Assembly: GCF_004087915.1 (NCBI RefSeq)
Contig: NZ_CP035108.1
Span: forward strand, 868,001 to 932,000
Reading direction: 5' to 3'
Length of the DNA stretch: 64,000 nucleotides
Source: Geovibrio thiophilus
GTDB taxonomy: Bacteria; Chrysiogenota; Deferribacteres; Deferribacterales; Geovibrionaceae
The notes under the pieces were generated by a model. That model made no database searches. It had not been told where the DNA came from and saw only the letters and a list, made by a program, of their open reading frames with translations. The position numbers and the translations under genes are program-made. The stretch's first letter is position 1. Every line of letters begins with the position of its first letter. Positions 17,881 through 42,517 of the stretch are shown in pieces.

Positions 17881-18447
17881 ATGGCTGCAAATACGGAAAA
17901 CAGCGTTCAGCCCGAAACGGCTCTGGAGTGCCTGATGGACAGAATCGGGGAAGAGCACGGCGTGCAGGACACTATGTATGAAATACTCGCCTTCTGTTCG
18001 GCTGAGAGAACAACCGCTGAGATCCTGAAACACGTTAAAGAGCTGGGAGCGGATTCCATTCTTTACTCACCGGAGACTCTCATAACATGGCTCTATAACG
18101 CTCAGGGACTCAGGATCGTCAGGGATGAGCCGGAGACTGTCTGGATCAGCAGTTCCATTGGAACGGAGGCTGCCGGCAGACGGCAAAACTCAGACAGGCT
18201 GAAAAGCCTTCTGGAGCAGGAAGCTGTCTTTAATAACCTGTATGTCAGTATTCTCAGAAATTGTGTGATTCCGAAAACCAAAGAAGAGATTGAAGAGATT
18301 ATTGAACCCATTCTTCAGGCAGGAAGCACCGGAATCTACCCCGCCTATTTCATCGGAATGCTTGAAGATGCCGGCGGGCTCAGATGGGACAGTAAATGGC
18401 ACACGACGGAAAATGGAGTGAAGCTGCTGACGGCGGCTGCCTCTTAA
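17881..18447 (+). CDS. Unrecognised protein with two similar winged-helix-like halves
   Basis: A 188-residue cytoplasmic protein with no signal peptide and no Cys-rich motif. Start 17881 is fixed by GGAGG just upstream. I do not recognise a named family. The two halves align with each other: MYEILAFCSAERTTAEILKH with YVSILRNCVIPKTKEEIEEI, and ETLITWLYNAQGLR with AYFIGMLEDAGGLR. Each half looks like three helices and a short wing, as in winged-helix domains. It lies between the porin and the reductase gene. It could be a second regulator, a protein partner of the reductase, or an assembly factor. Confidence 0.7.
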   Translation: MAANTENSVQPETALECLMDRIGEEHGVQDTMYEILAFCSAERTTAEILKHVKELGADSILYSPETLITWLYNAQGLRIVRDEPETVWISSSIGTEAAGRRQNSDRLKSLLEQEAVFNNLYVSILRNCVIPKTKEEIEEIIEPILQAGSTGIYPAYFIGMLEDAGGLRWDSKWHTTENGVKLLTAAAS

Positions 18448-18473
18448 ATATTCACTTCAATAAGGAGAAAAAT

Positions 18474-24793: not shown

Positions 24794-25978
24794 TTATGCT
24801 TCAAACCACGATGCTGTTCTTTTGCATATCCCGACCAGCATGAGCATCACCGGAACCTCGATAAGCACGCCGACAACAGTGGCAAGAGCGGCGCCGGAGG
24901 AAAGTCCGAACAGCATTACCGCTGTGGCTATGGCTACCTCAAAGTGGTTTGAGGCGCCGATCATCGCCGCAGGAGCCGCATCCTCATATTTGAGTCTGAG
25001 CATTTTAGCGCCTGCGTAGCCCAGAGCGAATATCAGCACAGTCTGGAGAAAAAGCGGAACAGAGATCCATAAAATAGTCAGCGGGTTGGCGAGTATCACC
25101 TCACCTTTGAAGCTGAACAGCAGCACAAGGGTGAGCAGCAGGGCGCCTATTGTTACCGGAGTGAGCAGATGGAGGAATTTTTCCCTGAACCATTCCTCTC
25201 CTTTTGCGCTGATTATAAGCTTTCTGGAGAAATATCCCGCAACCAGAGGCAGAGCCACATAAATGCCGACCGAAAGCAGAAGTGCCTGCCACGGAACGGG
25301 AAGCTTGCCCACACCGAGGAGAAACCCGCCGAGAACTCCGTAAAGCACGAGCATCGTAAGCGAGTTGATAGCAACCATCACAAGGGTCAGCCCGTCGTTC
25401 CCCCTTGAGAGGTAGCCCCATACAAGAACCATCGCCGTGCAGGGAGCTATGCCCAGAAGAATGCACCCCGCGAAGTAGCTGCGCCAGAGGGGTATTTCAA
25501 GCATCTTCACTCCGTCCGCAAGGACAACTGTGCCCGCTCCGTGCGCACTGCCCACGGGAAGATCAAGCCCGAAGGGCATTCTGACGAGATCGACCGCCTC
25601 GGCTCCTATGAAGCCCCTGAACAGAAAACCAAGAAAGAACAGGGCTATAACGTACATTGTGAACGGCTTTACGCACCAGTTTATAAAAAGGGTGAGGAAT
25701 ACCGGTTTTCCGCTTCTGCCCGCCTTAACTACCTTTTCAAAATCTATCTTCACCATAATCGGGTACATCATGAAGAAAAGGCACACGGCAATGGGTATCG
25801 ACACAACGGGGCTGCCGTTCACGATGACCGACATGCCGTCCAGCGTTTTAGCCAAATCCGGCGCGATTTTCCCCAGAGCGATACCGCCGATTATGCAGAG
25901 CCCTACCCAGAGGGTGAGGTATTTTTCAAATATGCTTGTCATTCTGCGTTCATCTGCGCAGTTTACATTGCTCATCAA
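24794..25978 (-). CDS. acr3: ACR3-family arsenite efflux permease
   Basis: A 394-residue protein with about 10 TM helices. The family signature is in [20 protein letters not shown], which contains the Cys needed for arsenite transport, and in [20 protein letters not shown]. Acr3 exports arsenite with the proton-motive force. The N-terminus is about 25 residues longer than usual; the likely start is at 25978 or a few codons inside. It is downstream of arsM on the same strand (15 bp gap), so the two form one unit. Confidence 0.93.
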
Positions 25979-25992
25979 ATCTCTCCCGAAAG

Positions 25993-26790
25993 TTATTTTA
26001 CAGCTTTAACCACTGCGGATACCACATAGTCTTCAATGCTGCTGCCCGGAGACCACTCTGAGATAAACTCACGGCTTTCACCCTTAGGCTTTATGCTGAT
26101 GCCGTGGAATCCGCTTCTGCGCATCATTTCCTCAAGATCTTTTATGTGAGACGCGCCCGCCATGCAGCCTGTGTACATTGCAAGGTTGTTTTTAACATCA
26201 TCCGGCAATGCTGCTGTTGCCACTATGTCCGAAACGGCGATTCTGCCTCCCTTTTTCAGAACACGGAAGCATTCCCTGAAAACCTTTTCCTTATCAGGCG
26301 AAAGGTTTATTACGCAGTTGGATATTACTGCATCAACTGTGGAGTCGCCTGCGGGGAGGTTTTCTATTTCACCCAGACGAAAATCGACATTATTAAAGCC
26401 GCTCTCTTCGGCAGTTTTGCGTGCCTTGCTTACCATCTCCGGCGTCATGTCCACACCTATCACCCGCCCTTCGGCACCTACGGCTCTTGAGGCGAGAAAG
26501 CAGTCAATCCCGCCGCCGCTGCCCAAATCCAGAACGGTTTCGCCCTGTTTCAGCTCCGCTTCGGCTATGGGGTTGCCGCAGCCTAAGCCCAGATTGGCGC
26601 TTTCCGGGATGGATGCCAGCTCTTCCGCGGAATAGCCGAGGACAACAGAAATTGATTCTGCGTTTGCCGCTTTTCCGCTGCCGCAGCAGGATTCAGTCTC
26701 GCATCCGCACCCAGCGGGTTCAGCTACGGCGAATTTCCTGTAATTATTTCTCACTGCTGCTCTTATACCGTCTTTACCGCTTTGGTTCAT
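25993..26790 (-). CDS. arsM: Arsenite S-adenosylmethionine methyltransferase
   Basis: A 265-residue protein. The SAM-binding motif is [15 protein letters not shown], with the acidic residue in GVDMTPEM. The three Cys residues that bind As(III) in ArsM are present: C71 ([10 protein letters not shown]), C159 (VISNCVINL) and C209 (MYTGCMAGA). An N-terminal Cys group (CGCETESCC) is also present. The start at 26790 has GGAGG six bases upstream. It methylates arsenite to less toxic or volatile forms and is the first gene of the arsM-acr3 unit. Confidence 0.93.
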
Positions 26791-26843
26791 GCTTAACCTC
26801 CGGATTTTTGACATTTATTTGTATTCTTCATGAGAATTTCTTA

Positions 26844-26861
26844 TTTCTATATTTATAGAAA
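26844..26861. promoter_or_regulatory. Perfect 18-bp palindrome in the arsM/arsC divergent region
   Basis: Arms TTTCTATA (26844-26851) and TATAGAAA (26854-26861) surround TT. It lies between divergent arsM and arsC and is the best operator candidate for the detoxification genes. No arsR gene is present nearby, so the binding protein is unknown. Confidence 0.55.
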
Positions 26862-26910
26862 TGAAAGTATGAAAATGCAAGTCAAAATTAAGTCAGATTT
26901 CGGAGGAGCC

Positions 26911-27339
26911 ATGTCCAGAAAAAAAGTTCTTTTTGTATGCGTGCACAACAGCGCAAGGAGCCAGATGGCGGAAGCCCTGCTCAACAGCATTGCCCCTGAC
27001 AGATTCATAGCGGAAAGCGCCGGGCTGACCCCGGGTACGCTGAACCCGTTTGCGGTGGAGGCGATGAAGGAGACGGGCATTGATATTTCAGAAAACACTG
27101 TGGACAGTGTTTTCGATTTTTTCAAAGAGGGCAAGGTGTTCAGCTATATCATCACTGTCTGCGACGCGGAAGCCGCTGAGAGATGCCCTCTCTTTCCCGG
27201 CGTTGAGGTAAGGAGAATCCATTGGACATTTCCCGATCCTTCCGCTGCCGGAGGCGGTCATGAGGAAAAGCTTCAGGCTGCAAGAGAAGCGAGGGATATG
27301 ATCAGGGCGAAGCTTGAAGAGTGGCTTAAAACAGTGTAA
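26911..27339 (+). CDS. arsC: Arsenate reductase, low-molecular-weight phosphatase (thioredoxin-coupled) type
   Basis: A 142-residue protein with the P-loop C-x5-R at residues 10-16 (CVHNSAR), the second Cys pair in [14 protein letters not shown], and the DP loop in [10 protein letters not shown]. These are the catalytic elements of the ArsC (LMW-PTP) class, which reduces cytoplasmic arsenate to arsenite using thioredoxin. The start is set by CGGAGGAGCC just upstream, and it is divergent from arsM-acr3. It is followed by a terminator. Confidence 0.93.
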
Positions 27340-27374: not shown

Positions 27375-27495
27375 ATTCTTAATCTGCTAAATTATTCTTC
27401 CAATTCTTTTATTTTTATGGTTATCATAATGAAACTTCGGACACTTCATAGGGATGAAAAAAAACATATTCCGTCCTGACACAGGAGAAGAGTCA

Positions 27496-28356
27496 ATGAA
27501 ATCATCTGCAATTTTATTTTGCCTGTCAGTATTTTTGTTTTGGTCGACATCTGCCCGGGCTCAGGAAAAGGAAACCATCCATTTCGGCGTTGCCTCGGTT
27601 ATTTCACCGGGCGAAAGCTACAGCCAGTACAGTGCCCTCAGTGAATATCTCGGGAAGAAGCTTAATATGAAGGTTGCGTTCTTTCAGAAGGACAGCTATG
27701 CCAAAATGAACTCAATGATACGGGAAGGAGAGGTGGATGTAGCCACTGTCTGTACCGGCGCTCTTCTCGATCTGAATGAAAAGGATTATAAAGTCCTTGC
27801 CATTCCTGTCGTGCGGGGCAAATCGTCTTATCATTCGTATATAATAGTTTCGGAGAAATCGGGCATTAAATCGGTTGACGGGCTTAAGGGACAGACATTC
27901 GCCTTTACCGACAGCCTTTCCAACAGCGGAGCGCTCTATCCCACCTACCTAATCACAAAGAACACTAATCAGAGTCCGGAACGTTATTTTTCAAAAGTCT
28001 ACTACACCGGAAACCATGACAAGTCCATATTCCTTGTGAACAGCGGAGTGGTGGCGGGTGCGGCTGTGGACAGCCTGATATTTGAGTATTTCAGGGAAAA
28101 ATATCCCGAAAAAGTTGCGAACATCCGCATTATTGATACTTCCCCTGAGTTTCTCGCGCCGCCAATTGTCGCTTCCGGCAAGGTTAATGACACGCTTTTT
28201 AAGAAAATGCAGAGCATACTGGTAAATATGCACAAAGACGATGAAGGGCGCAGGATACTCGGCGGCATTCTCGTCGACAGGCTTATTCCGCCGGACAGTC
28301 ACAGTCTGGACAGCATGATAGAGATGAAGAAGTTTTTAGATGCGCATTCCCGCTAG
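27496..28356 (+). CDS. PhnD/AioX-like periplasmic binding protein of a three-component oxyanion sensor
   Basis: A 286-residue protein with a Sec signal (MKSSAILFCLSVFLFWSTSA) and a PhnD-type fold: IHFGVASVISPGESYSQYSA at the start, then REGEVDVATVCTGALLDL and TFAFTDSLSNSG. The mature protein has a single Cys (residue 86) in ATVCTGAL. The AioX family that works with an arsenite-sensing kinase has the same domain and uses a Cys. Start 27496 has GGAG eight bases upstream. It overlaps the kinase gene by 17 bp. The ligand is probably arsenate or arsenite, by context. Confidence 0.82.
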   Translation: MKSSAILFCLSVFLFWSTSARAQEKETIHFGVASVISPGESYSQYSALSEYLGKKLNMKVAFFQKDSYAKMNSMIREGEVDVATVCTGALLDLNEKDYKVLAIPVVRGKSSYHSYIIVSEKSGIKSVDGLKGQTFAFTDSLSNSGALYPTYLITKNTNQSPERYFSKVYYTGNHDKSIFLVNSGVVAGAAVDSLIFEYFREKYPEKVANIRIIDTSPEFLAPPIVASGKVNDTLFKKMQSILVNMHKDDEGRRILGGILVDRLIPPDSHSLDSMIEMKKFLDAHSR

Positions 28357-29719
28357 ATTCATCCCCGATTCCTTTCGGAACCGGGTTCTTATGCTGATAG
28401 TTTTTCTGGGGATTTCGGCTATGGTGCTTGAGCTTGCCATAGTCACATCCTTCCAGTACCAGTTCATACGCAGAGGGGCGGAGAATACACTCGCCAGCCA
28501 GCATAAGGTCATAGAGTCCTACATATCCGAGGCGATGCTCTATGACAATATCTTTGACATGTACTCCCTGCTGAAAGCCTCAACCGATGCCCACGAATTC
28601 ATAAAGAATATTTACCTTTTCGACAGCTCCGGAAGGCTTGTTGTGGATGCCCTCACGGAGGGCGGCTGGGATGAGTCCATGCGTGAGGGCTGGTATTTTG
28701 AATATAAGATACTAGCTAAAAACGAAGTGATAGGCGAGGTGGTGTACGTTCTGAACAGCGGCTATGTAAATAATGCCGTTGCGCTTCAGTTTCTGGAAAC
28801 ATGTCTTTTCTTCCTTATTCTTCTGGGAGCGGGGCTTGTGTTCGCCACAAAAATATCCGTATTCATCACGGAGCCTCTTCTTTCACTTTCAAACGAGATA
28901 AACAAGTTTACTCTGGACAACCTGCCGGAAAAGATTGAAACGGATAAATACGCCACAACCGAGATAAAGGCTCTTGCGGAAACTCTGGGGAATATGTCTC
29001 GCACGCTCAAGGACGCCCTGAATGAGATTTACCGCCAGAGTGAACAGCTTAAAAGAAGCGAAAGGCTTGCTACAGTGGGAACAATGGCGGCGGGACTTGC
29101 CCACGAGCTTAAAAATCCTATTATGACAATAAATCTGCTTTCCATGAGCCTTAAGGAGAATCATTCAGACCCTCAGTCCGCGGAGGATCTCGCTGTTATG
29201 CGCAAAGAATCGGACAGGATAGTGGCGACGCTTAACGACTTCCTCAGCCTCTCCCGTCCCATGGAGGTGAAGCCTGAGAAAATTTCCGCTCATGCCGTAA
29301 CAGCCTATCTTGTGCAGTATGTCAAAAGCAGATTTAAGGACAGCCTCACCGCCACGGTTCAGGCGGGAAGCAACATAGGCTTTGTGAGTGACCCTGAAAA
29401 GCTGTATCAGGTTATGATCAGCATGGTTCATAATTCCGCAGAGGCCGGAGCTACAAAGGTTCATTTCGGTTTCGGCAGGGAAAGCGGTTTTGCGGTGTTT
29501 GAAATTTCGGACAACGGATGCGGAATCCCGCAGGAGAAGCAGTCTAAGATCTTCATGCCGTTTTACACCTCCAAGGCGACCGGCACAGGGCTGGGGCTGA
29601 CATATACAGAAATGATTCTGGAGATTCTCGGCGGCGGAATAGAACTGGATAAAGAATACTCAGGCGGTGCAAAATTCATTATAAAAGTGAAGGATCATGA
29701 AAAAGATACTGATAATTGA
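28340..29719 (+). CDS. Sensor histidine kinase of the arrA three-component system
   Basis: A 459-residue membrane kinase with two TM helices (RVLMLIVFLGISAMVLELAI and FLETCLFFLILLGAGLVFAT), a periplasmic region of about 115 residues, a HAMP-like segment (about 180-235), the His box in MAAGLAHELKNPIMTINLLS, and ATPase boxes (MVHNSAEAGA, FEISDNGCGIP, GTGLGLTY). It overlaps the binding protein upstream and the regulator downstream by 17 and 23 bp. It should phosphorylate the NtrC-type regulator in response to the binding protein. Confidence 0.9.
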   Translation: MRIPARFIPDSFRNRVLMLIVFLGISAMVLELAIVTSFQYQFIRRGAENTLASQHKVIESYISEAMLYDNIFDMYSLLKASTDAHEFIKNIYLFDSSGRLVVDALTEGGWDESMREGWYFEYKILAKNEVIGEVVYVLNSGYVNNAVALQFLETCLFFLILLGAGLVFATKISVFITEPLLSLSNEINKFTLDNLPEKIETDKYATTEIKALAETLGNMSRTLKDALNEIYRQSEQLKRSERLATVGTMAAGLAHELKNPIMTINLLSMSLKENHSDPQSAEDLAVMRKESDRIVATLNDFLSLSRPMEVKPEKISAHAVTAYLVQYVKSRFKDSLTATVQAGSNIGFVSDPEKLYQVMISMVHNSAEAGATKVHFGFGRESGFAVFEISDNGCGIPQEKQSKIFMPFYTSKATGTGLGLTYTEMILEILGGGIELDKEYSGGAKFIIKVKDHEKDTDN

Positions 29720-31076
29720 TGATGATACGTCCCTCTGCTACGGCATGAAGCGGGTTCTCTCCGGCAGATACTCCGTTTCCACCGTCTCATCCTCGGAGGA
29801 GGCCTTCGAGCATCTGGGAAACGGCAGTTTCAGCCTTATTCTGCTTGATTACAGGCTGGGCTCCGAGAACGGTCTTGAGGTTCTGGAAAAAATAAAAGAG
29901 CTCTCCCGTACTGTTCCGGTGGTCATGCTCACCGCCTTCGGCACAAGTGACACCGTGCTTGACTCGTTTAAACTCGGAGCGGCGGATTTCCTCGTGAAGC
30001 CGGTTGATTATGAAGAGCTTACCGACTGCATAGAAAAGTACGCCCGCCCCGAAAAAATATCCTGCGGGGAGGATGCGCTGCCTGTGGAGGAGCTCGGTGA
30101 AACAGGCTCCGCCTTCGTGGGCTCATCACGCAAGATCCGCGACGTGTTCAAACTGATCGCCACAGTCGCAAACTCAAATACGCCAGTGTTCATAACAGGG
30201 GAAAGCGGGACGGGCAAGGAGTTGATAGCCGGTCTTGTTCATGAAAGGAGCCACCGCAGGGACAAGCCCTTTGTGGTGATAAACTGCGCGGCTATCCCCC
30301 GTGAGCTCCTTGAGAGCGAGCTCTTCGGGTATGTTAAGGGTGCGTTTACCGGAGCCCATCAGGACAGAACGGGCAAATTTGAAGCAGCCCACACCGGAAC
30401 CCTGTTTCTGGACGAAATAGGGGAGCTGCCCGTGGAGCTTCAGTCTAAGATGCTGAGAGTGCTCCAGAACGGCACAATAGAGAGGCTGGGTTCAAATAAG
30501 TCCGTTCATGTGGACGTACGCATTGTTTCCGCCACAAACAGGAACATCGCAGAACTCATAGCCGCAGGGGAGTTTCGTTCGGATCTCTTCTACAGGCTGA
30601 ATGTTGTGGACATAAAGCTTCCTCCCTTAAGGGAAAGAACGGACGACATACCGCCGCTTGCAGCGTTTTTTGCCGCGAAATATTCCCTTGAGGCGGGAAA
30701 AAGCATCTGCTGCATAGACAGGGAGGTGGTGGATATATTCAGAGCCTACTCTTGGCCGGGAAACATCAGAGAGATGCAGAACGTTATCAAAAAGGCGGTT
30801 ATACTCTCCTCCTCAAACCGTATCACCGAATCGGACATACAGCTTGCGGGGCAGGAAGCGGAAAAGCCCGAGAGCAGCTCTGCCGCCGTGTGGGAATACT
30901 TTTTTGCAAAATTCCCGTCAGATACGCTTAACAGCAGCGTTGAGGAGCTGGAAAAGATACTCATAGAGAAAAGTCTGCTGAAAAACTCAAATCACCTGAC
31001 ACATACAGCTGAGGAGCTTGGAATAACCAGAGTAACCCTGAACGCGAAAATGAAGAAATACGGCATTAATATTTAA
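29697..31076 (+). CDS. NtrC-family sigma-54 response regulator controlling arrA
   Basis: A 459-residue regulator. The receiver (1-120) has acidic DDD near the start, the phospho-acceptor in LILLDYRLGSENG and the Lys in DFLVKPVDY. The AAA+ domain (about 140-375) has GESGTGKE, intact GAFTGA (GYVKGAFTGAHQ) and GTLFLDEIGELP. The C-terminal Fis-type helix-turn-helix ends EELGITRVTLNAKMKKYG. The gene is 150 bp upstream of arrA, whose promoter is of the sigma-54 type with two symmetric sites in front. Confidence 0.92.
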   Translation: MKKILIIDDDTSLCYGMKRVLSGRYSVSTVSSSEEAFEHLGNGSFSLILLDYRLGSENGLEVLEKIKELSRTVPVVMLTAFGTSDTVLDSFKLGAADFLVKPVDYEELTDCIEKYARPEKISCGEDALPVEELGETGSAFVGSSRKIRDVFKLIATVANSNTPVFITGESGTGKELIAGLVHERSHRRDKPFVVINCAAIPRELLESELFGYVKGAFTGAHQDRTGKFEAAHTGTLFLDEIGELPVELQSKMLRVLQNGTIERLGSNKSVHVDVRIVSATNRNIAELIAAGEFRSDLFYRLNVVDIKLPPLRERTDDIPPLAAFFAAKYSLEAGKSICCIDREVVDIFRAYSWPGNIREMQNVIKKAVILSSSNRITESDIQLAGQEAEKPESSSAAVWEYFFAKFPSDTLNSSVEELEKILIEKSLLKNSNHLTHTAEELGITRVTLNAKMKKYGINI

Positions 31077-31225: not shown

Positions 31226-33757
31226 ATGCGTATAAGCAGAAGGAATTTTATTAAAGCTTCCGCCGCCGCAGGTGCCATAGCCGCGGTGGGCTGCGGTGTT
31301 TCCGGCAACGCCCTTGCCCCGGCAAAAGGCGAAAAGAAAATAGGCGAGGCTCCCGGCAAATGGATTTCCACATCCTGTCAGGGCTGTACAACGTGGGATC
31401 CAATACAGATTTTCGTTCAGGACGGAAGAGCAGTAAAGGTAAGGGGTAACCCCAACAGCAAGTCCAATCATGGAACATGCTGTCCAAGAGCGCACCTCAC
31501 ACTTCAGCAGGTCTATGACCCAGACAGAGTTAAAGTGCCGATGAAGAGAACAAACCCTAAAAAAGGCAGAGGCGTTGATCCCCAATTCGTGCCTATTTCA
31601 TGGGACGAGGCTCTCAACACCATAGCGGATAAAATGATGGAGCTGCGCAACAACGGCGAGGCTCACAAATACATGCTGAACCGCGGGCGCTACACGCACA
31701 TGAATGTTCTTATTTATGACGCGATGACAAAGATCTACGGTTCACCCAACAACATCAGCCACTCATCAATCTGTGCCGAGGCTGAGAAGTCCGGCTCATT
31801 CTTCACTGAAGGTCTCTGGGATTACCGTGATTATGACATGGTCAATACCAAGTTTATGCTGATCTGGGGTCTTGATCCGCTCAGCTCAAACCGTCAGGTT
31901 CCGTACACAATCAAAATGTTCGGTGATATTCTTGACCGTGCCAAGGTTGTGGTTGTTGATCCCAAGATGAACGCCTCATCCGCAAAGGCTCACGACTGGC
32001 TTCCAGTTATTCCCGGTGAAGACGGAGCGCTTGCTGTGGCTATGGCTCACGTTATCCTCACTGAGGGTCTTTGGTATAAAGAGTTTGTGGGTGATTTCAG
32101 CGATGGGGTAAACCGTTTTAAAATGGGTGAAACCGTTGCGGAAGACACATTTAAGGAGATCCAGACCAACGGTGTGGTCAAATGGTGGAACATAGAGCTT
32201 AAGGACAAAACCCCCGAATGGGCTGAGAAGCTCTGCGGTGTTCCTGCCTCTAAGATTTACCAAACGGCGCGGGATATGGCAAAAGCGGCTCCGAATGTTG
32301 CCGTATGGCTCGGACCGGGTGCGGCTATGCACGTGAGAGGAACTTACTCCGCCATGTCAGTTCACGCTCTCAGCGGACTGATGGGCAGCAGCGACAACAT
32401 AGGCGGCTCACTGGCAGGAATGAAAGTTCTCGGTAACGGTCTTCAGAAGCTTGACGGCTATCTTGATGAAACAGCAAAGAAAAAGAATAAGAAAATAGAC
32501 CAGAGAGGAACCCTTGCCTTTCCGGCGATGGCAAGCGGCAAACCGGGCAGCGGTGTTATCACGAATAACCTGCCCGATGCGATAATGGCTAAAAAACCCT
32601 ATGACATCAAAATGGGTCTCGGCTATATGAACAACTTTCCCTTCTCCGGCACAGGCGCTCAGAGATGGGAGAAAATGTTCGCCGAAAACGAAATTTTCTA
32701 TGTTCACCTCACAACCCATGCCTCAGAACTTACAATGTTCGCCGACATTGTGCTTCCTGCCGCTCAGACAACCACAGAAAAGTGGGCATACCTGAAGAAC
32801 AAGGGCGGTCAGTTCGGTTACAGCACAATTCTTCAGCCTGTAATCAAGCCTGTATGGGACGTTAAGGCGGATGAAACGGAAATTCCTTTCCTTCTGGCGA
32901 AAAAGTTTGCCGAAAGGGGATTTACAAACCTTCTGGATTTTTACATGAACGAATTTAAAGATGTCGAAACCGGAAAAGCACCCGCAGACGAGAAAGAATT
33001 TACCGTAAACGCCGTGAAATACTATACCCAGCCCGCATGGGCAAACGCAGACCCCGCTCAGGGCGATGTGATCGGCTCATGGGAAAAATTCAAAGAGGTC
33101 GGTGTGTGGAACTCTGCTTCCTATAAATTCAAAGGGCGCTGGGGCAAATATAAAACCGTAACTCAGAAATTCGAGTTTTACAGCGAAACGCTTAAAAAAG
33201 CTCTCAATGAGCATGCCGCAAACAACAAAGTTGATGTGGATAAGGTTCTTGAGGTCTGCAATTACGAAGCCAGAGGAGAGAAAGCGTTTGTTCCTCATTA
33301 TGAGTCTCCCTTCCGTTACGGAAGCATGGAAGAATATCCTTTCACCTTTGTTGATCATAAGTCACGTCTGAATAAGGAAGGAAGAAGCGCCAACTGTACA
33401 TGGTACATGGAGTTCAAGAAGGTTGACGCAGGCGACGCAAGCTGGGAGGACGTTCTCAAGATGAATCCCGCAGATGCTCAGAAACTCGGTATTGCCGACG
33501 GCGGAATGGCGAAAATATCTTCCGTATCCGGAACATTCCTCACCAAAGTTCGCTACTGGGAAGGCATACGCCCGGGAACAGTGGCTAAGGCTTACGGTCA
33601 GGGGCATTGGGCATACGGTAAGGTCGCTTCCAAGAAGTTCGGCAAAGAGGCTTACACATTCAATAATAACGAGCTCATCCCCGCTGACTACGACAGGCTC
33701 ACCGGAGCGACAGCAAGAAACGGCGGTCTTTGCGGCGTCAAAATCGAGAAGGCGTAA
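31226..33757 (+). CDS. arrA: Respiratory arsenate reductase catalytic subunit
   Basis: An 843-residue Tat-exported molybdopterin protein (MRISRRNFIKASAAAGAIAA). ArrA hallmarks are RGRY (153-156), SHSSICAEAEKSG with Cys183 as probable Mo ligand, VYDPDRVKVPMKRTNPKKGR and VVVDPKMNASSAKAHDWLPV. ArrA reduces arsenate to arsenite in the periplasm as a terminal electron acceptor reaction. An odd point is the N-terminal cluster motif: C51, C54 and C86 are present but the third ligand is Asp58 (CQGCTTWDP). Start 31226 has AGGAGG six bases upstream. The related arsenite oxidase ArxA or a tetrathionate/selenate reductase is a less likely alternative. Confidence 0.88.
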   Translation: MRISRRNFIKASAAAGAIAAVGCGVSGNALAPAKGEKKIGEAPGKWISTSCQGCTTWDPIQIFVQDGRAVKVRGNPNSKSNHGTCCPRAHLTLQQVYDPDRVKVPMKRTNPKKGRGVDPQFVPISWDEALNTIADKMMELRNNGEAHKYMLNRGRYTHMNVLIYDAMTKIYGSPNNISHSSICAEAEKSGSFFTEGLWDYRDYDMVNTKFMLIWGLDPLSSNRQVPYTIKMFGDILDRAKVVVVDPKMNASSAKAHDWLPVIPGEDGALAVAMAHVILTEGLWYKEFVGDFSDGVNRFKMGETVAEDTFKEIQTNGVVKWWNIELKDKTPEWAEKLCGVPASKIYQTARDMAKAAPNVAVWLGPGAAMHVRGTYSAMSVHALSGLMGSSDNIGGSLAGMKVLGNGLQKLDGYLDETAKKKNKKIDQRGTLAFPAMASGKPGSGVITNNLPDAIMAKKPYDIKMGLGYMNNFPFSGTGAQRWEKMFAENEIFYVHLTTHASELTMFADIVLPAAQTTTEKWAYLKNKGGQFGYSTILQPVIKPVWDVKADETEIPFLLAKKFAERGFTNLLDFYMNEFKDVETGKAPADEKEFTVNAVKYYTQPAWANADPAQGDVIGSWEKFKEVGVWNSASYKFKGRWGKYKTVTQKFEFYSETLKKALNEHAANNKVDVDKVLEVCNYEARGEKAFVPHYESPFRYGSMEEYPFTFVDHKSRLNKEGRSANCTWYMEFKKVDAGDASWEDVLKMNPADAQKLGIADGGMAKISSVSGTFLTKVRYWEGIRPGTVAKAYGQGHWAYGKVASKKFGKEAYTFNNNELIPADYDRLTGATARNGGLCGVKIEKA

Positions 33758-33768
33758 GGAGGTAGAAA

Positions 33769-34524
33769 ATGGCTCAATACTGTATGGTAATAGATCTTCA
33801 GAAATGCGCAGGGTGCGGAGCGTGCGGAATCGCCTGCAAAACGGAAAACAACACCCCCGACAGAAAAAACGGGCAAACCTTCAACTGGGCTGATTACGTG
33901 ATCAAGATGGAAGGCAGGTTCCCCGATGTGAGCTTCGCTGCCATCCCCGTTCTCTGCAACCACTGCTCAAACGCGGCATGTGTCGAGGCGTGCCCCGTTG
34001 AGCCCAAGGCGATGTTCAAAACGCCCGAAGGCATAACTATGCACAACGATGAACGCTGCATCGGCTGCCGTTCCTGTCAGATAGCATGCCCTTACAGCGC
34101 GGAGGATATTGAGGCTGAAAAAGCGGAGTACAGCGTAATCAGCTTTAACTTTGACGGTGAGGATGTGCAGTCCGCCTACACTTCAAAGGCAGCCCTTATT
34201 CCCGGCGGAACATCTGCAGGCGCTGAAATCGCTAAGAAAACCGGCGGGCTTCCTCCTTATAAAACAGACTACTCCCACCCTGAGTATGAGGCAGTGCGCA
34301 GAGCGGGTGTCACTGAGAAGTGCTACCTCTGCCACCACAGACTGATGGTTAATGAAAAACCATGGTGTGTGAAATCCTGCCCTTCAGGCGCAAGGGTTGT
34401 GGGTGATAAGAACGACCCGAGCAGCGAAGTAAGCAAACTGCTTGCGAAGTATCCCTCCATGGTGCTTAAACCCGAGGAAGGAACCAAGCCAAATGTTTAC
34501 TATATAAGGAACTTTAAGGTGTAG
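33769..34524 (+). CDS. arrB: Respiratory arsenate reductase FeS subunit
   Basis: A 251-residue protein with four Cys groups: CAGCGACGIAC, CNHCSNAACVEAC, CIGCRSCQIAC and CYLCHHRLMVNEKPWCVKSC. This is the usual four-cluster ferredoxin subunit of ArrAB. It has no signal peptide and is expected to be exported together with ArrA. The gap to arrA is 11 bp with GGAGG. A hairpin follows before the chaperone gene. Confidence 0.9.
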   Translation: MAQYCMVIDLQKCAGCGACGIACKTENNTPDRKNGQTFNWADYVIKMEGRFPDVSFAAIPVLCNHCSNAACVEACPVEPKAMFKTPEGITMHNDERCIGCRSCQIACPYSAEDIEAEKAEYSVISFNFDGEDVQSAYTSKAALIPGGTSAGAEIAKKTGGLPPYKTDYSHPEYEAVRRAGVTEKCYLCHHRLMVNEKPWCVKSCPSGARVVGDKNDPSSEVSKLLAKYPSMVLKPEEGTKPNVYYIRNFKV

Positions 34525-34582: not shown

Positions 34583-34603
34583 ATTTTTTATAACGGAGTG
34601 AAT

Positions 34604-35212
34604 ATGGAAACGAAATTCCCCGAAACGGCAGCGATAAAAACGGAAGCTTACAGGCTTCTCGCACTGTGTTTTTATCCGCCGAAAGAAACAGTACTGGAAG
34701 AGAAAACAATCACCGAATCCCTTGCCTGCGCCTTGGATTCGCTTGGAATACATAAAGAAGCGGAAGAGCTGAAAGCGGCTTTCGCCGAAACGCCTGAAGA
34801 TGCTCTGGAGCTTGACTTCGCCAGACTGTTTGTCGGTCCCTTCGAGCTTCCCTGTCCGCCTTACGGTTCTGTTTATCTGGAAAAAGACAGGCAGATTATG
34901 GGGAAAACCACCATGGACGTAGCGGCGATATACGAAGCCGCGGGTCTTCAGGTTGAAGAGGAAATGCACGAGCCCGCAGATCACATAGCTATCGAGCTTG
35001 AGTTTATGCACCTGATGGATATACGCATAAGGAATGCTGAGCAGGCTGATAACAAAGAGGACGTCGATGCTTTGTCCGAGCTAAGGAGAATGTTTCAGGA
35101 ATCATATTTCGTTCCGTTCGCGTCAAAATTCGCTGACGCAGTGGCAGAAAATGCCGAAACTTCATTTTACAGAGCGGTCGGCAAGGCTTTCAATAAATTC
35201 ATTGCTTCCTGA
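34604..35212 (+). CDS. arrD: TorD-family chaperone for ArrA
   Basis: A 202-residue helical protein with the TorD motifs LDFARLFVGPFELPCPPYGS and EPADHIAIELEFMHLMD. It is probably the dedicated chaperone for the ArrA Tat precursor. The start is at 34604 (five bases after GGAG); an in-frame GTG at 34598 is less likely because it overlaps the ribosome site. It follows arrB beyond a hairpin and ends at a terminator. Confidence 0.85.
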   Translation: METKFPETAAIKTEAYRLLALCFYPPKETVLEEKTITESLACALDSLGIHKEAEELKAAFAETPEDALELDFARLFVGPFELPCPPYGSVYLEKDRQIMGKTTMDVAAIYEAAGLQVEEEMHEPADHIAIELEFMHLMDIRIRNAEQADNKEDVDALSELRRMFQESYFVPFASKFADAVAENAETSFYRAVGKAFNKFIAS

Positions 35213-35288: not shown

Positions 35289-35963
35289 CTATTCTTTTAC
35301 GATTCCTTCACGCCATGCGTAAACGGCGGCTTGGGTACGGTCTGTTAAATAGAGCTTGCTCAGAATGTTGCTTACGTGGGATTTCACGGTTTTTTCCGAG
35401 ATATTCAGGCGTGCCGCAATATCCATGTTTGACAAACCTTCCGCGATACGCTGGAGCACCTCCATCTCACGTTCGGTTAAATCTTCGTGGAGCTGGTTTT
35501 CCTGTGTCTTTGCCGCCCGAGCCCGTGTAACGACGGTCACAAGCGCCTTGGCGACGCGCGGACTGATGGTGCTTTCTCCCGCAGCCGCTTTCCGCACGGA
35601 GCGGATGAGGTCTTCAGGCGTTGTGTCCTTCAATATATAGGAGATTGCTCCTGCCTGTGTTGTAGGCACAACATATTCATCACCTTCGTGGGAGGTGACC
35701 ATGATAATCTGGCTGCGCGGGCTGACCTTTTTAATCTGGCGCACGGTTTCGACCGCAGGCTGATCAGGCATGAACAGATCCAGCAGCACCACATCCGGCG
35801 CATGCTTTTCAGCGGCTTCCACCGCTTCGGCGCCTCCGGAGGCAACACCCATCACTTCAATATCTTCGGCAGTGGCGAGAAAGGCGGTTAATCCCTTGCG
35901 AACCATTGCGTGATCATCGGCAAGAATGAGTGTGATTTTCTCGGTCATGTCTCGTTCCTCCAT
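35289..35963 (-). CDS. NarL/LuxR-family response regulator
   Basis: A 224-residue regulator with a receiver (phospho-acceptor in VVLLDLFMPDQP, Lys in ISYILKDTTP) and a LuxR-type helix-turn-helix (LTEREMEVLQRIAEGLSNMD then ISEKTVKSHVSNILSKL). The length and domains fit the LiaR/NarL group. Translation may start at residue 6 (MTEKITLI). It overlaps the kinase gene by 19 bp and is divergent from the MipA-MFP-RND operon, which is its likely target. Confidence 0.9.
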   Translation of the reverse strand: MEERDMTEKITLILADDHAMVRKGLTAFLATAEDIEVMGVASGGAEAVEAAEKHAPDVVLLDLFMPDQPAVETVRQIKKVSPRSQIIMVTSHEGDEYVVPTTQAGAISYILKDTTPEDLIRSVRKAAAGESTISPRVAKALVTVVTRARAAKTQENQLHEDLTEREMEVLQRIAEGLSNMDIAARLNISEKTVKSHVSNILSKLYLTDRTQAAVYAWREGIVKE

Positions 35964-37405
35964 GAGATCTTGATAAGAGTTCCGCTGTTTTCGGCGCTTT
36001 CGATTTCAAATTCTCCGCACGGCAAATGACGCGCCCTGTCACGCATTGAGGTAATGCCGAATCCTCCGGTTTTTTTGCCTGTATCAAACCCGCTGCCGTT
36101 ATCGGTGATCGTCAGTACGGAAGCTGCGTGGTCGATTCTGCTTTCAATTATAATTTGAGAAGCACTGCCGTGACGAATTGCGTTCATCAGCGCCTCCTGC
36201 ACAATCCGCAGCACATGATGCTCGGTGTGAGCGTTAAACCGGACAGAGTCAAAACAGCTTAATTCGATATTCACGCCGAAGCGCCGTCTGAAATCATCCG
36301 CAATCATGCCGATACGCTCAAAAAGTGATGTATCGTCGGTTCCTGCGGGGCGCAGTTGGGTGATGATCTCCATCAGATCGTGCTGCGCTTCCCGGGTAAT
36401 GGTTTCAGCCTCAAGAATATGTTCCTGCGCTGCCTCCATCACCGCAGGCTTGGACTTGGCGGTCGCCAATTGCAGCCCCAGCGCGAAAAGTTTTTGTTTT
36501 ACCGTGTCATGCAGTTCTCTCGCCACACGGCTGCGTTCGTCGCTTACCGCAAGATTTTGTTTCAGACTCAGATACATCTCCAAGTCCTGAGCCATGTCGT
36601 TGAGCTGTCGGCTGTGCCTTATGAGCACATCGTCATCCGGCAGCTCGATACGCGGCTCAAAGTTGCCCTGCCGCCAGCTTTCCGTGACCTCATTCATTTT
36701 CTGAAGCTGTTTTGTTACATAGCGGGAGGCTATCAAACCGCAGGCGATGCCGATAGGTATAGAGAGCAAAAGTAAATTATCGGTGATGAACATAAGAAAA
36801 TGAAAGATACTTTTGATCTGCACCCAAAGATTAAATTCTGCGATATATAATATACGCAAACGTCCGATAACAGTTCCGCTGCTGTCAGTTACGGGCATGT
36901 CCACCCAGATGGAACCGTTTTCTGTCAGCCGCTTGGAGCTGCTTTGTGCGGCAGGCAGTTGCTGTTGCTGTTGCAGAAGAAACTCGTGTGCGGCTTTTTC
37001 GGGAAGGTCGACAGGGTCAGACATCAGGAGGCGATCATTTTTATCGGTAATCTGAATATACACTTCGGGGAGGCTGGAATTGGTAATGCGGTATATCGCA
37101 ATGCCGTCGTCATTATCTTCTGTTATGTTTATCAGTTTTTTACGGATGTTATCCCGTGCTTTATCCAGCCATTCAGTATTATCCGTGTCACGGATTCCCT
37201 GTGAGATAATGAGTTTCTCGTCGGCTGCAAGTCTTTCAATATTTTCAGGGGTTATGGCTGCGCGGAAATCTCTGTAATCACTCATTCCGTATTGCATCAC
37301 TATAACCAGTGACATTGCGCAGATTGCGAGCAGGGAATAACTTACGGCAAGCTGGAACCACAGGCGCTTCGTAAAGGTCAGGCAGTACTCAATCCATTTC
37401 TTCAT
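35945..37405 (-). CDS. HisKA_3-type sensor histidine kinase (LiaS/NarX-like)
   Basis: A 486-residue kinase with two TM helices (LWFQLAVSYSLLAICAMSLV and FLMFITDNLLLLSIPIGIAC), a periplasmic sensor of about 160 residues with a five-Gln run near LLQQQQQLPAAQSS, a HAMP segment, the HisKA_3 His in RSRVARELHDTVKQKLFALG and the ATPase boxes (LRIVQEALMNAIRHG, ITDNGSGFD). The periplasmic domain suggests a direct envelope or ligand signal. It is the partner of the adjacent regulator. Confidence 0.9.
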   Translation of the reverse strand: MKKWIEYCLTFTKRLWFQLAVSYSLLAICAMSLVIVMQYGMSDYRDFRAAITPENIERLAADEKLIISQGIRDTDNTEWLDKARDNIRKKLINITEDNDDGIAIYRITNSSLPEVYIQITDKNDRLLMSDPVDLPEKAAHEFLLQQQQQLPAAQSSSKRLTENGSIWVDMPVTDSSGTVIGRLRILYIAEFNLWVQIKSIFHFLMFITDNLLLLSIPIGIACGLIASRYVTKQLQKMNEVTESWRQGNFEPRIELPDDDVLIRHSRQLNDMAQDLEMYLSLKQNLAVSDERSRVARELHDTVKQKLFALGLQLATAKSKPAVMEAAQEHILEAETITREAQHDLMEIITQLRPAGTDDTSLFERIGMIADDFRRRFGVNIELSCFDSVRFNAHTEHHVLRIVQEALMNAIRHGSASQIIIESRIDHAASVLTITDNGSGFDTGKKTGGFGITSMRDRARHLPCGEFEIESAENSGTLIKISWRNET

Positions 37406-37565
37406 TCCTTCACTATACGGATTTTATTTTGAAAAAACATCATCCTTGAGGCGGATATATTATTTTTTAAAGACTCTCCGCCTTAAGACCGATGCGCCCA
37501 AAATAATACCTCTCTATACTTCGGTTCACAAAGCACAAATATAATCCGAACCGGAGGATCATCCT
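37406..37565. promoter_or_regulatory. Divergent intergenic region with an inverted repeat over the mipA leader
   Basis: This 160-bp region separates the two-component system from the mipA-like operon. CGGTTC (37522-37527) and GAACCG (37548-37553) are complementary, and the right arm abuts the GGAGG ribosome site of the mipA-like gene. It could be an operator for the adjacent regulator or a leader hairpin that hides the ribosome site. Confidence 0.4.
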
Positions 37566-38330
37566 ATGTTGTACAATTTACGTTCAATCGTATTCACAAG
37601 CCTGTTGCTTGCCATTTTAACAGCCGGAGTAAGAGCAGAGGAAAAAGACTGGAACTATAGTGTGGGCGGCGGAGTGATGTACGGCGCCGCATATGAAGGT
37701 TCCGACAAGTATGTGGTTAAAGCTGTTCCCGATGTTTCCGTTGAATATAAGGAAGGGGTATTCTTTGCGGGTATTATGGGCGGAATCGGCGGTTACCCCG
37801 TTCTGACTGAAGATTATAAGCTCGGCGCGGCGGTAGGTTTTGATTTCGGGCGTTCCGAGGATGATGACAAAGGCAACCTCCGCGGAATGGGTGATATAGA
37901 CATGTCCGCAACTCTCAGCCTCATGGGTGAATACAGCTTCGGTCCTTTGCAGGTTTCAGGCAAAGCCACAAAAGGAACCGAGGACTACGGCACAACTGCG
38001 ACTGTGGAGCTCGGAACGATGTTTCCCATTGGCGACAAGCTGATGATCATGGCATCGGTCGGTTCCACATGGGCGGATAATGATCATATGGAGAGCTATT
38101 TCGGCGTTTCACAAAAGCAGGCGGCACGTTCAACATACAGCCGCTATGATGCCGAAGCCGGGCTCAAATCGGTAGGCTTCGCCCTAGGAGCGTTTTATAA
38201 CATCACTGAAAGCTGGGATGTTAAGCTTATGATAAACGGAGATCAGTTTCTCGGTGATGCGGCAGACAGCCCTTTAACAAAAGATGATTTTAATCCGTCC
38301 GTATTTTTTACAACAGGTTTCAATTTCTAA
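37566..38330 (+). CDS. MipA/OmpV-family outer-membrane protein
   Basis: A 254-residue protein with a Sec signal (about residues 1-24, ending VRA) and alternating beta-strands. The family start is YSVGGGVMYGAAYEGSDKY, and it ends in DDFNPSVFFTTGFNF with a terminal Phe for outer-membrane insertion. MipA/OmpV proteins are outer-membrane barrels sometimes linked to peptidoglycan enzymes and antibiotic response. It is the first gene of an operon with an MFP and RND pump but no TolC-like protein. Confidence 0.82.
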   Translation: MLYNLRSIVFTSLLLAILTAGVRAEEKDWNYSVGGGVMYGAAYEGSDKYVVKAVPDVSVEYKEGVFFAGIMGGIGGYPVLTEDYKLGAAVGFDFGRSEDDDKGNLRGMGDIDMSATLSLMGEYSFGPLQVSGKATKGTEDYGTTATVELGTMFPIGDKLMIMASVGSTWADNDHMESYFGVSQKQAARSTYSRYDAEAGLKSVGFALGAFYNITESWDVKLMINGDQFLGDAADSPLTKDDFNPSVFFTTGFNF

Positions 38331-38384
38331 TTGACCGAAAGCGTGAGAAAAAGCCTTCAATTTCAACCAGATAAAGCAGGAACG

Positions 38385-39458
38385 ATGAAAAATAATATAT
38401 TAACAATATCTCTTGTCATTGCGGTGTTTGCCGCAGCCGCCGTCTTTTGGATGCTGAAAAACCCGGGTAAAAAGGAAACGCCGAAGGCGTCTGTGTCTGC
38501 GGTTCTCACTGTCAGTGAAGCAGCAGTAACCGAGGCGGAATGGACGGAGAGCATAAAAGCCACAGGGCAGGTTGCCGCTTGGCAGGAAGCCGTTATCGGT
38601 ACGGAAATTTCCGGACAAAGACTGATCGCTGTTCCGGCTGATGTGGGCGATGTCGTGAAAAAGGGGCAGGTTCTGGCAAAATTCAACTCCGAAACGCTTC
38701 TGGCTGAATACGCTGAGCTGGAAGCAAATTGGATAGCCGCGGAATCAAACCGGAAGCGCGCGCTGAATCTTAAGGTCTTTGACGCAATCAGTGAGCAGTC
38801 TGTCGAGGATTACATCAATAAGGCGGCAGTGGCGAAGGCACAGATGGACGCAAAGGCGCTGCACCTGAAATATACAAATATCACCGCCCCGGATGACGGG
38901 GTTATCAGCGTCCGAAATGCAACACTGGGAGCAGTGGGGGCGGCGGGCGAAGAGTTGTTCAGGCTTATCAGACAAAACAGGCTTGAATGGCGTGGTGAAC
39001 TGACTGCAAATCAGGCTGCGCATATAGTCAAAGGGCAATCCGTTATTCTTGCCCTGCCGAACGGAGACAAGGCGGAGGGGACGGTAAGACAGATCGCGCC
39101 CTCTTTCGATCCTGAAACCCGTCTGATTACAGTGTTTGTTGATATTAAAGCAGGGAGCGGCGCTCAGGCAGGGATGTACGCAGAGGGACAGATCCGGCTC
39201 GGAAAGCGAACCGCCCTGAAGGTTCCCGCGAAGAGCGTTGTCATCCGTGACGGGCACAGCTACGTTTTCAGCATCATCAGCAATGCTTCCGGCGCGGCGG
39301 TAAGCCGGCATGAGGTCATGCTCGGGCAGACACGGGGAAATGAAGCTCAGATATTATCCGGTTTGTCCAAGGGCATGCGCATTGTTTTACAGGGCGCCGG
39401 ATTTTTAAATGACGGGGATATTGTAAGAATTTCTGCTGAAAAAGGCGGTCGGGAATGA
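38385..39458 (+). CDS. RND efflux periplasmic adaptor
   Basis: A 357-residue membrane fusion protein. It begins with a membrane anchor (ILTISLVIAVFAAAAVFWML). The lipoyl halves are QEAVIGTEISGQRLIAVPAD and LKYTNITAPDDGVISVRNAT, separated by an unusually short coiled-coil segment. The start at 38385 has AGGA upstream; the frame opens with TTG directly after the mipA stop but lacks a ribosome site. The ATGA overlaps with the pump gene. The adaptor connects the pump to an outer-membrane channel encoded elsewhere. Confidence 0.88.
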   Translation: MKNNILTISLVIAVFAAAAVFWMLKNPGKKETPKASVSAVLTVSEAAVTEAEWTESIKATGQVAAWQEAVIGTEISGQRLIAVPADVGDVVKKGQVLAKFNSETLLAEYAELEANWIAAESNRKRALNLKVFDAISEQSVEDYINKAAVAKAQMDAKALHLKYTNITAPDDGVISVRNATLGAVGAAGEELFRLIRQNRLEWRGELTANQAAHIVKGQSVILALPNGDKAEGTVRQIAPSFDPETRLITVFVDIKAGSGAQAGMYAEGQIRLGKRTALKVPAKSVVIRDGHSYVFSIISNASGAAVSRHEVMLGQTRGNEAQILSGLSKGMRIVLQGAGFLNDGDIVRISAEKGGRE

Positions 39459-42400
39459 ATTTTGCCACATGGTCGATACAAAATCCCATCCCGCCGATAC
39501 TGCTGTTCATGCTTCTCACACTGGCGGGGCTTTATGGTTTCAATAAATTCACAATTCAGGATTTGCCGGATATTGAGTTTCCTGAAATAGAAGTATCTTT
39601 GTCTCTCCCCGGCGCTGTTCCCTCTCAGCTTGAAACAGAAGTCGCCCGTAAGGTTGAGGATTCCATTGCCGGAGTTTCCGGCGTGAGGCATATATCAACT
39701 TCAATCACAGAAGGCAGCGTTTTAATCTCCGTAACATTTGTTCTGGAAAAAGCGGTCTCTGACGCTCTCATAGAAACAAAAGACGCTGTTGAACGCATCC
39801 GGTCAGACCTGCCGGCTGACCTTGAATCTCCGATAGTCTCTGCCGCGCGGATCAGCAATGATTCCTTAATGACATATGCCGTCTCTTCCTCAAGCCTGAA
39901 CGAAGAAGCCCTGTCATGGTTTGTGGACGATACTCTGGGGAAAATCTTTATGTCTGTGAACGGCGTGGGGCGTTTCAGCAGAGTCGGCGGGGTCAGCAGA
40001 GAGATCAGGATTGAAGTCGATCCGGTTAAGCTGGCATCGCTGAATGTCACTGCGGCTGATGTTTCAGAAGCCGTAAGGCGGGTTCAGCTCGAATCTTCAG
40101 GCGGACGAATCAATATAGGTCAGGCGGAGCAGTCTGTAAGGACAATCGCGACTGCGGCACTGGCATCAGATTTGAATGCTCTGCCTGTTGCGCTCCCTGA
40201 CGGGCGCTATCTCAGGCTGGATCAGGCGGCGAATATCTCAGATACTTACGCCGAGCGCACAGAGGCTGCCCTGTTAAACGGCAGGGAGAGTGTCGCATTC
40301 CGGATATACGGCTCAAAGGGGGCAAATGAAGTAAAGATAGCAGAAGATGCTGCCCTGATCATTGAGCGCCTGAAACAGGAATACCCTGATTTAACGATTA
40401 CTCCCGTTGTAAATTCTGTTACCTATACGCTGGAGCAGTACGAAGGCTCCATGCGCATGCTGTATGAGGGTGCTGTCCTTGCCGTCATAGTGGTCGGATT
40501 TTTCCTGCGTGACTGGCGTGCGACAATTATTTCAGCGTCGGCTCTGCCTTTATCAATCATCCCCACTTTCGGGATCATGTACTGGCTAGGTTATTCTCTC
40601 AATACTCTTTCTCTTCTTGCTTTGGCTGTTGTAGTGGGCATCCTGATTGATGATGCCATTGTGGAGGTGGAGAACATAGTGCGTCATAAGCGGATGGGGA
40701 AATCCACTCTTGCCGCCACAAAGGATGCGGTAAATGAAATTGCTCTGGCGGTGATCTCCACAACTATGACGATTGTCGTCGTGTTTCTGCCGACTGCTCT
40801 CATGGGAGGCGTTACGGGGCTTTTCTTCAAACAGTTCGGCTGGACAATCGTTATCTCAGTCCTGATGTCACTGATGGTGGCTAGGCTGCTGACTCCTCTG
40901 ATGGCAGCGTATTTCCTGAAAAACGACAGTCATTACCGGCATGAGGAAGACGGTTTTATTATGAGGAAATATCTTGATGCCGTGCGGTGGTGCCTGATTC
41001 ATAAAAAGAAAACCCTGTTCATGGCAGCGGCTTTTTTCGGAGTATCTCTTTTTTTGGCGGCTCAGCTTCCTGCGGGTTTTGTTCCGTCTTCCGATCAGGG
41101 ATACACAAACCTGAGCATCGAACTGCCTCCGGGGAGCACTCTGGAGGACACATTGGCAACTACTGAAACTGTCCGCAAGTCTTTATTGAAAGTGAAAGGG
41201 ATCGAAAATATTTTTGCGGTGGCGGGTTCAGCAGAAGAAGGAGGTGTGGGAGACCTGCGCAAAGGATCAATGATTTTAACTTTCCTGCCGAAGGACAAAC
41301 GTCCGCCGCAAGGCGTTATTGATGCTGAGATCAGAAAAATACTGCCTGAGATACCGGGCGCCAAATTTACACTGAAAAACGACGGACCCGGTGAAGATTT
41401 TTCAATCCTTCTTTCGGGCGGGAGCATGGGCGCTTTGACTGATACTGCTGCGTCTCTGGAAAAAGAACTGCGCGGGATAAAAACCTTATCCAATGTTAAC
41501 TCGACCATCAGTCTCCAGCGTCCGGAGATCAATATCCGTCCGGATTTTGCCAGAGCCGCTGAATTGGGAATAACGACAGAGGATATAGCCGATACGGTGC
41601 GCATAGCGACTTCAGGCGATTTTGATCCTTATCTCTCCAAGCTGAATCTTGATAACAGACAGATTTATATCCGGGTACGCATGGCGGAGGACGAGTTGCA
41701 GGATATTGATACTATTGCGGGTCTTCGTATTCCCTCCCGCGCGGGGCAGACGGCGCTTTCCGGTATAGCGGAAATTTCCATAGGCAACGGTCCGTCACAG
41801 ATAGACCGTTACGACCGCCGGCGGTATGTCACCGTCAGCGCGGACTTGGACGGTATGTCACTCGGGCAGGCTCTGGAACAGGCAATGGCGCTGCCGTCCA
41901 TAGCAAATATGCCTTCCGGTGTGAAATTGATAGAAACGGGTGACGCCGAATTCATGAATGAGATATTCTCCGGTTTCAGCACTGCCATGCTCACCGGAGT
42001 CCTGTGCGTATTCTGTGTTCTGGTGCTTTTGTTCAAAGACTTTTTTCAGCCGGTAACAATTCTCTCCGCCTTGCCTCTGTCTTTCGGCGGGTCGATTATC
42101 GCGCTTTTGATAATGGACGGAGAGGTGAACCTGCCCGCATTGATCGGCATTATCATGCTGATGGGAATTGTCACCAAGAATTCCATCCTGCTTGTGGAAT
42201 ACACAATAGTCGGGATGAAGGAAAGGGGGATGGAGCGCTGTGAGGCTGTTATTGACGCCTGCCATAAGCGGGTACGTCCCATCGTCATGACGACAGTCGC
42301 CATGATTGCGGGAATGGCTCCCATAGCCATCGGGATGGGCGGCGATAAGTTCAGGCAGCCTATGGCGGTTGCGGTAATCGGCGGATTGATCACATCCACG

Positions 42401-42517
42401 GTTCTCAGCCTTCTGATCGTTCCGGTTGTTTTTACTTATATCAATGCCGCTGAGGGCTGGTTCGCAAGGCGGATCCGGAACATTAATATTTCTCCGGAAG
42501 AGTCTGAGCGGGGATAA
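39455..42517 (+). CDS. RND efflux pump, HAE family
   Basis: A 1020-residue inner-membrane pump. It has the TM4 Asp pair in VVGILIDDAIVEVENIVRHK and the TM10 Lys in LMGIVTKNSILLVEYTIVG. The first periplasmic loop starts ITIQDLPDIEFPEIEV-like, as in the MexF/MdtC-like branch of HAE pumps. Substrates cannot be inferred. It is the last gene of the operon and is followed by a long inverted repeat. Confidence 0.93.
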   Translation: MNFATWSIQNPIPPILLFMLLTLAGLYGFNKFTIQDLPDIEFPEIEVSLSLPGAVPSQLETEVARKVEDSIAGVSGVRHISTSITEGSVLISVTFVLEKAVSDALIETKDAVERIRSDLPADLESPIVSAARISNDSLMTYAVSSSSLNEEALSWFVDDTLGKIFMSVNGVGRFSRVGGVSREIRIEVDPVKLASLNVTAADVSEAVRRVQLESSGGRINIGQAEQSVRTIATAALASDLNALPVALPDGRYLRLDQAANISDTYAERTEAALLNGRESVAFRIYGSKGANEVKIAEDAALIIERLKQEYPDLTITPVVNSVTYTLEQYEGSMRMLYEGAVLAVIVVGFFLRDWRATIISASALPLSIIPTFGIMYWLGYSLNTLSLLALAVVVGILIDDAIVEVENIVRHKRMGKSTLAATKDAVNEIALAVISTTMTIVVVFLPTALMGGVTGLFFKQFGWTIVISVLMSLMVARLLTPLMAAYFLKNDSHYRHEEDGFIMRKYLDAVRWCLIHKKKTLFMAAAFFGVSLFLAAQLPAGFVPSSDQGYTNLSIELPPGSTLEDTLATTETVRKSLLKVKGIENIFAVAGSAEEGGVGDLRKGSMILTFLPKDKRPPQGVIDAEIRKILPEIPGAKFTLKNDGPGEDFSILLSGGSMGALTDTAASLEKELRGIKTLSNVNSTISLQRPEINIRPDFARAAELGITTEDIADTVRIATSGDFDPYLSKLNLDNRQIYIRVRMAEDELQDIDTIAGLRIPSRAGQTALSGIAEISIGNGPSQIDRYDRRRYVTVSADLDGMSLGQALEQAMALPSIANMPSGVKLIETGDAEFMNEIFSGFSTAMLTGVLCVFCVLVLLFKDFFQPVTILSALPLSFGGSIIALLIMDGEVNLPALIGIIMLMGIVTKNSILLVEYTIVGMKERGMERCEAVIDACHKRVRPIVMTTVAMIAGMAPIAIGMGGDKFRQPMAVAVIGGLITSTVLSLLIVPVVFTYINAAEGWFARRIRNINISPEESERG

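Follow-up and report, generated by a model that had tools for sequence, protein, structure and literature searches.

The catalytic subunit of the respiratory arsenate reductase (ArrA) encoded in a 64,000-nucleotide stretch of Geovibrio thiophilus DNA (hereafter, the window) carries an Asp in place of the third Cys of the motif for the iron-sulfur cluster FS0. This substitution, Asp58, is real and is conserved in the Deferribacterales clade. From the sequences and by analogy with solved enzymes, we read the protein, with moderate confidence, as a working respiratory arsenate reductase whose FS0 would be held by three Cys and Asp58. The gene and the codons that matter for this reading are the following:

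31226..33757, forward strand: arrA, Tat-exported molybdopterin catalytic subunit (843 aa)
31376..31378, forward strand: codon of Cys51, first FS0 ligand, invariant in all homologues covering the site
31385..31387, forward strand: codon of Cys54, second FS0 ligand, invariant in all homologues covering the site
31397..31399, forward strand: GAT codon of Asp58, which replaces the third FS0 Cys (Asp in 9/9 Deferribacterales genomes, Cys in 81/81 others)
31478..31480, forward strand: codon of Cys85, an extra Cys adjoining the fourth ligand (Cys in all Asp58 proteins and in 25/82 others)
31481..31483, forward strand: codon of Cys86, fourth FS0 ligand, invariant in all homologues
31772..31774, forward strand: codon of Cys183, predicted Mo ligand in the motif HSSICAE, invariant in all homologues and aligned to SSVCAE of 6cz7

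Translation of 31226-33757(+) yields the motif C51-x2-C54-x3-D58-x27-C86, within the stretch WISTSC51QGC54TTWD58PIQIFVQDGRAVKVRGNPNSKSNHGTC85C86PRAH. The solved ArrA 6cz7 matches residues 43-842 of the window protein (E = 2e-290) and the motif is aligned without gaps: D58 stands against the Cys of WCAKQ and the three remaining motif Cys align. There is no alternative third Cys and no indel in this alignment, and the sole extra Cys nearby is C85. A first-pass annotation of this DNA had proposed that Asp takes the place of the third [4Fe-4S] Cys, which translation and alignment bear out, and had correctly placed the GAT codon two substitutions away from a Cys codon (TGT or TGC). It had also argued that the change is not a simple error, and the Asp is indeed common to nine independent genomes, encoded by both GAT and GAC. 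We give practically no weight to a sequencing or assembly error, or to a misalignment hiding another third Cys: the nine genomes, the two codons and the lack of an indel rule these out, and the genomes of the window and of Denitrovibrio acetiphilus each consist of a single contig.

We analyzed the distribution of the substitution across genomes. Full-length ArrA was found in 12 of the 51 genomes searched from the same phylum. The Deferribacterales arrA encodes Asp in all nine genomes (five genera and three families; 63-95% identical), among them the type strain of D. acetiphilus (G018), and the mixture of GAT and GAC reflects synonymous drift under a constant residue. Cys was found at position 58 in 81 of the 81 other ArrA homologues covering the site, including three from a sister family (f10; same phylum but outside the class) in which it is encoded by TGC; L065, which is cut before the motif, was left out of this count. 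L009 is the only Asp58 sequence in the set of 80 named homologues taken from the genome collection (L009 and L095 in G014 are one contig, counted once). A DNA pattern reading Cys or Asp codons after CQGCTxW was further searched in 345 genomes of Desulfobacterota, 198 of Nitrospirota and 398 of Bacillota. In these samples of three phyla the strict motif matched 17, 16 and 8 sites, respectively, with Cys at 41/41 and Asp at none. No second arrA with Cys was detected in the window's genome or in nine sister genomes without this arrA. The trait is therefore lineage-specific, as had been supposed from the window alone: all the Deferribacterales ArrA found share a fixed Asp, which the other ArrA lack, those of the sister family in the same phylum included. 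The first-pass annotation had called for an alignment scoring residue 58 across homologues; in ours Asp is confined to Deferribacterales, and neither of the two outcomes that it had named as refuting the reading was observed. Surveys can use Asp58 to recognize Deferribacterales arrA by sequence. The gene itself is patchy in the order, with several genomes lacking it (G022, G024-G028, G006, G013 and G015), one of them in the window's own genus. Arsenate respiration is known from the isolate Seleniivibrio woodruffii.

In a maximum-likelihood tree of 91 ArrA, the Asp58 proteins are monophyletic (SH-aLRT 98) and nested among Cys proteins. This nesting suggests that Cys changed to Asp most simply once and that Asp was then kept, and a single origin is most likely given these sequences. 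Close Cys58 relatives are ~64% identical to the Asp58 proteins. The change from Cys to Asp takes two base changes, via Tyr or Gly, and neither intermediate was seen at position 58 among the homologues examined. The alignment of 798 columns contains 123 columns that are fixed in the Cys group, 111 of which are also fixed in the Asp clade; column 58 is the only one of these 111 where the residue differs. This, with the Asp common to nine independent genomes, goes beyond chance. Around the fourth ligand, the deepest member of the clade (L096) retains the usual residues Y84 and G89, which indicates that T84 and A89 of the remaining clade arose later.

The genes surrounding arrA are listed below:

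24794..25978, reverse strand: acr3-like transporter (Pfam SBF family), with a putative arsenite efflux role judged from the locus
25993..26814, reverse strand: arsM-like methyltransferase (Pfam Methyltransf_31), the arsM role being likewise presumed from the locus
26830..27339, forward strand: arsC-like gene of the low-molecular-weight phosphatase family (Pfam LMWPc)
27454..28356, forward strand: arrX, periplasmic arsenate-sensor protein (Pfam Phosphonate-bd)
28340..29719, forward strand: arrS, histidine kinase (Pfam HisKA, HATPase_c)
29697..31076, forward strand: arrR, sigma-54-dependent response regulator (Pfam Sigma54_activat, Response_reg)
33769..34524, forward strand: arrB, four-cluster ferredoxin-like electron-transfer subunit (NF041715; 16/16 cluster Cys present)
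34598..35212, forward strand: conserved gene directly 3' of arrB (arrD), putative TorD/DmsD-type chaperone

With arrXSR, arrAB and genes of the ars type, the predicted content is that of a locus for arsenate respiration. The best PDB match of ArrX is ArrX 6x6b (E = 9e-41), ahead of phosphonate binders. At the Asp58 loci, as well as at the other arr loci that were inspected, arrB is followed by a homologue of the gene at 34598..35212. The gene's position and sequence character make a TorD/DmsD-type chaperone likely. arrC was not identified among the locus proteins examined. The arrXSR-type sensor module lies directly upstream of arrA in the window (27454-31076) and downstream of arrAB in L009. 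Its presence upstream of arrA contrasts with a 2018 paper that stated arrXSR to be absent from Deferribacteres (PMC5908839). The arr operon is followed, at window 35289-42517, by a NarXL-type two-component pair, a MipA/OmpV-type outer membrane protein and an RND efflux pump.

The AlphaFold2 model of the window ArrA, which was built without the cluster, has a mean pLDDT of 81 and a pTM of 0.84, and aligns to 6cz7 with a TM-score of 0.92-0.93. The protein also presents a Tat signal (TIGR01409; 24.3 bits for a cut-off of 16.7). Residues R155, Y156, H179, S180, C183 and K188 are invariant across the Asp58 clade; we take C183 to be the Mo ligand and the other five to be conserved pocket residues. 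Full-length homology, fold, Tat signal, Cys Mo ligand and a neighbouring ArrB all correspond to ArrA, and the four-Cys FS0 motif is the feature that is missing. The marks of the type II DMSO reductase family (NarG/NxrA), namely H/C-x3-C/D-x3-C and an Asp Mo ligand, were not found; the protein has C-x2-C-x3-D and Cys183 instead. We filed it as a variant ArrA because these other features are present, bar the NF041714 cut-off, and because the clade is nested inside ArrA.

That cut-off bears on a further reading, in which FS0 or the activity has been lost, or the substrate is not arsenate, and position 58 is a relic. The window ArrA scores 1102 bits with NF041714 (NCBIfam ArrA), below the curated cut-off of 1600, and we know of no assay of an Asp58 enzyme. 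However, all eight proteins that were run score between 1049 and 1285, thus below 1600, and six of the eight are Cys58 proteins. Those of the sister family (1049-1071) score no higher than the window ArrA, so the low score does not single out the Asp58 clade. Moreover, a relic position would vary. The three ligands, the predicted Mo ligand, the residues of the pocket and every cluster Cys of ArrB are invariant, and the arsenic context of the locus is strong. Together, these observations make a relic quite improbable.

In the enzymes of this superfamily, FS0 relays electrons between Mo and the ferredoxin-like subunit, and in NarG and DmsA it is assembled before the Mo cofactor is inserted (PMC10609526). 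A conserved working enzyme is thus expected to keep the cluster. FS0 is probably kept in Asp58 ArrA, since its three remaining ligands, the region of the Mo ligand and the 16 ArrB Cys are intact, and the combination of a fixed Asp with three intact ligands is best read as Asp58 being a ligand itself. Cys51, Cys54 and Cys86 would then bind three of the FS0 irons and the carboxylate of Asp58 the fourth. Electrons would follow an unchanged path from the quinol pool through the ArrB clusters, FS0 and Mo to arsenate. The oxygen ligand would shift the potential of FS0 and perhaps its spin state, and ligation by Asp58 may couple FS0 reduction to a proton; we make no confident prediction about the direction of the shift. 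Asp ligation, a retained 4Fe form, a retuned potential and arsenate as the substrate are all points that we infer. The chances seem even that the arsenate respiration of the whole order runs through an FS0 with a third-position Asp that retunes electron delivery to Mo or couples it to protons.

Alternatively, FS0 might be a [3Fe-4S] cluster or interconvert between 3Fe and 4Fe forms, in which case the three Cys would bind, Asp58 would hold no stable fourth iron, and the different potential of a 3Fe cluster would alter electron delivery to Mo. Three of the four motif Cys are left, consistent with such a cluster, and an Asp instead of Cys at a ligand position is typical of 3Fe and interconvertible 3Fe/4Fe ferredoxins. 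A lost ligand should vary freely, yet Asp is invariant over 63-95% identity, and the solved precedent with Asp in the superfamily is a 4Fe cluster (PMC8387239). Taking that residue, Asp71 of nitrite oxidoreductase, as the nearest precedent (PMC8387239), Asp ligation is more likely than a 3Fe cluster, which we regard as unlikely though it is the leading alternative.

It could also be proposed that the ligands were swapped, Cys85 giving the fourth thiolate and Asp58 being only in the second sphere. Indeed, Cys85 is fixed in the Asp58 clade, and the closest Cys58 relatives mostly present Val or Leu at this position. However, the 25 ArrA with Cys85 outside the clade include the same-phylum sister family with Cys58, which indicates that Cys85 does not depend on Asp58. 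It would also be geometrically unusual for a single cubane to be bound by two neighbouring Cys such as Cys85 and Cys86. We consider such a swap very improbable.

A cluster ligated by Asp58 can be compared to several known systems. The ArrA of Shewanella sp. ANA-3 (6cz7) and the NF041714 family resemble the window ArrA in fold, length, Mo-ligand motif, ArrB partner and Tat signal, and about half of the residues of the Shewanella protein are identical. The third FS0 Cys is present in this protein and in all other ArrA examined, whereas the Deferribacterales clade has Asp. To our knowledge, Asp is not known at the third FS0 ligand position of any molybdoenzyme. No earlier report of Asp at this position of ArrA was found in the literature searched, although with partial coverage at title and abstract level this is weak evidence. 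In the solved structure of Kuenenia stuttgartiensis NxrA (7b04), FS0 is bound by C67, D71, C75 and C115, and the authors argue that ligation by Asp71 tunes its redox potential (PMC8387239). The likeness is a DMSO-reductase-superfamily FS0 with three Cys and one Asp, a ligation that is predicted from sequence position in Asp58 ArrA. The Asp of NxrA occupies the second ligand position of C-x3-D-x3-C, and NxrA is a type II enzyme whose Mo is bound by an Asp, whereas that of ArrA is the third of C-x2-C-x3-D, with Cys on Mo, in a different enzyme branch. NarG and ethylbenzene dehydrogenase have a 3Cys/1His FS0 (PMC8840923). Their cluster closest to Mo likewise has a ligand other than Cys, but their His is at the first position and is conserved across the whole subfamily. 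In the small ferredoxin of Pyrococcus furiosus, Asp completes the ligand set of a [4Fe-4S] cluster as its fourth member. The same role is played by Asp in the regulator NsrR (PMC5411485). Unlike ArrA, neither of these is a molybdoenzyme.

No compensating Cys change was found in the ArrB of the Asp58 clade, where 16/16 cluster Cys are kept. Elsewhere in the window's genome, the cluster-bearing molybdoenzymes present the usual Cys or His ligand sets, without a third-position Asp among the motifs read, so the change is specific to ArrA rather than a general loss of cluster chemistry. The premise of the first-pass annotation that this position is normally Cys therefore holds in these enzymes and in other ArrA. 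Asp58 bears on the questions of what FS0 does in this superfamily and why certain lineages carry His or Asp where others have Cys. It represents a single natural swap in an otherwise conserved enzyme; with relatives that carry Cys at ~64% identity and with D. acetiphilus in culture, what one ligand does to potential, assembly and arsenate turnover can be tested directly.

The window's genome contains more than 12 molybdopterin oxidoreductases, several of which lie within ~100 kb around the arr locus (window 18396-21152; G000:C1:836500-842300 and 932074-942000). Finally, the ArrA of a Clostridia MAG (L032:2711-5242) has an in-frame stop at the Trp of its relatives (GVWNS), and in the ArrB of this MAG one cluster Cys is replaced by Asp. 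The MAG is weak, and both changes are most likely errors of its assembly.
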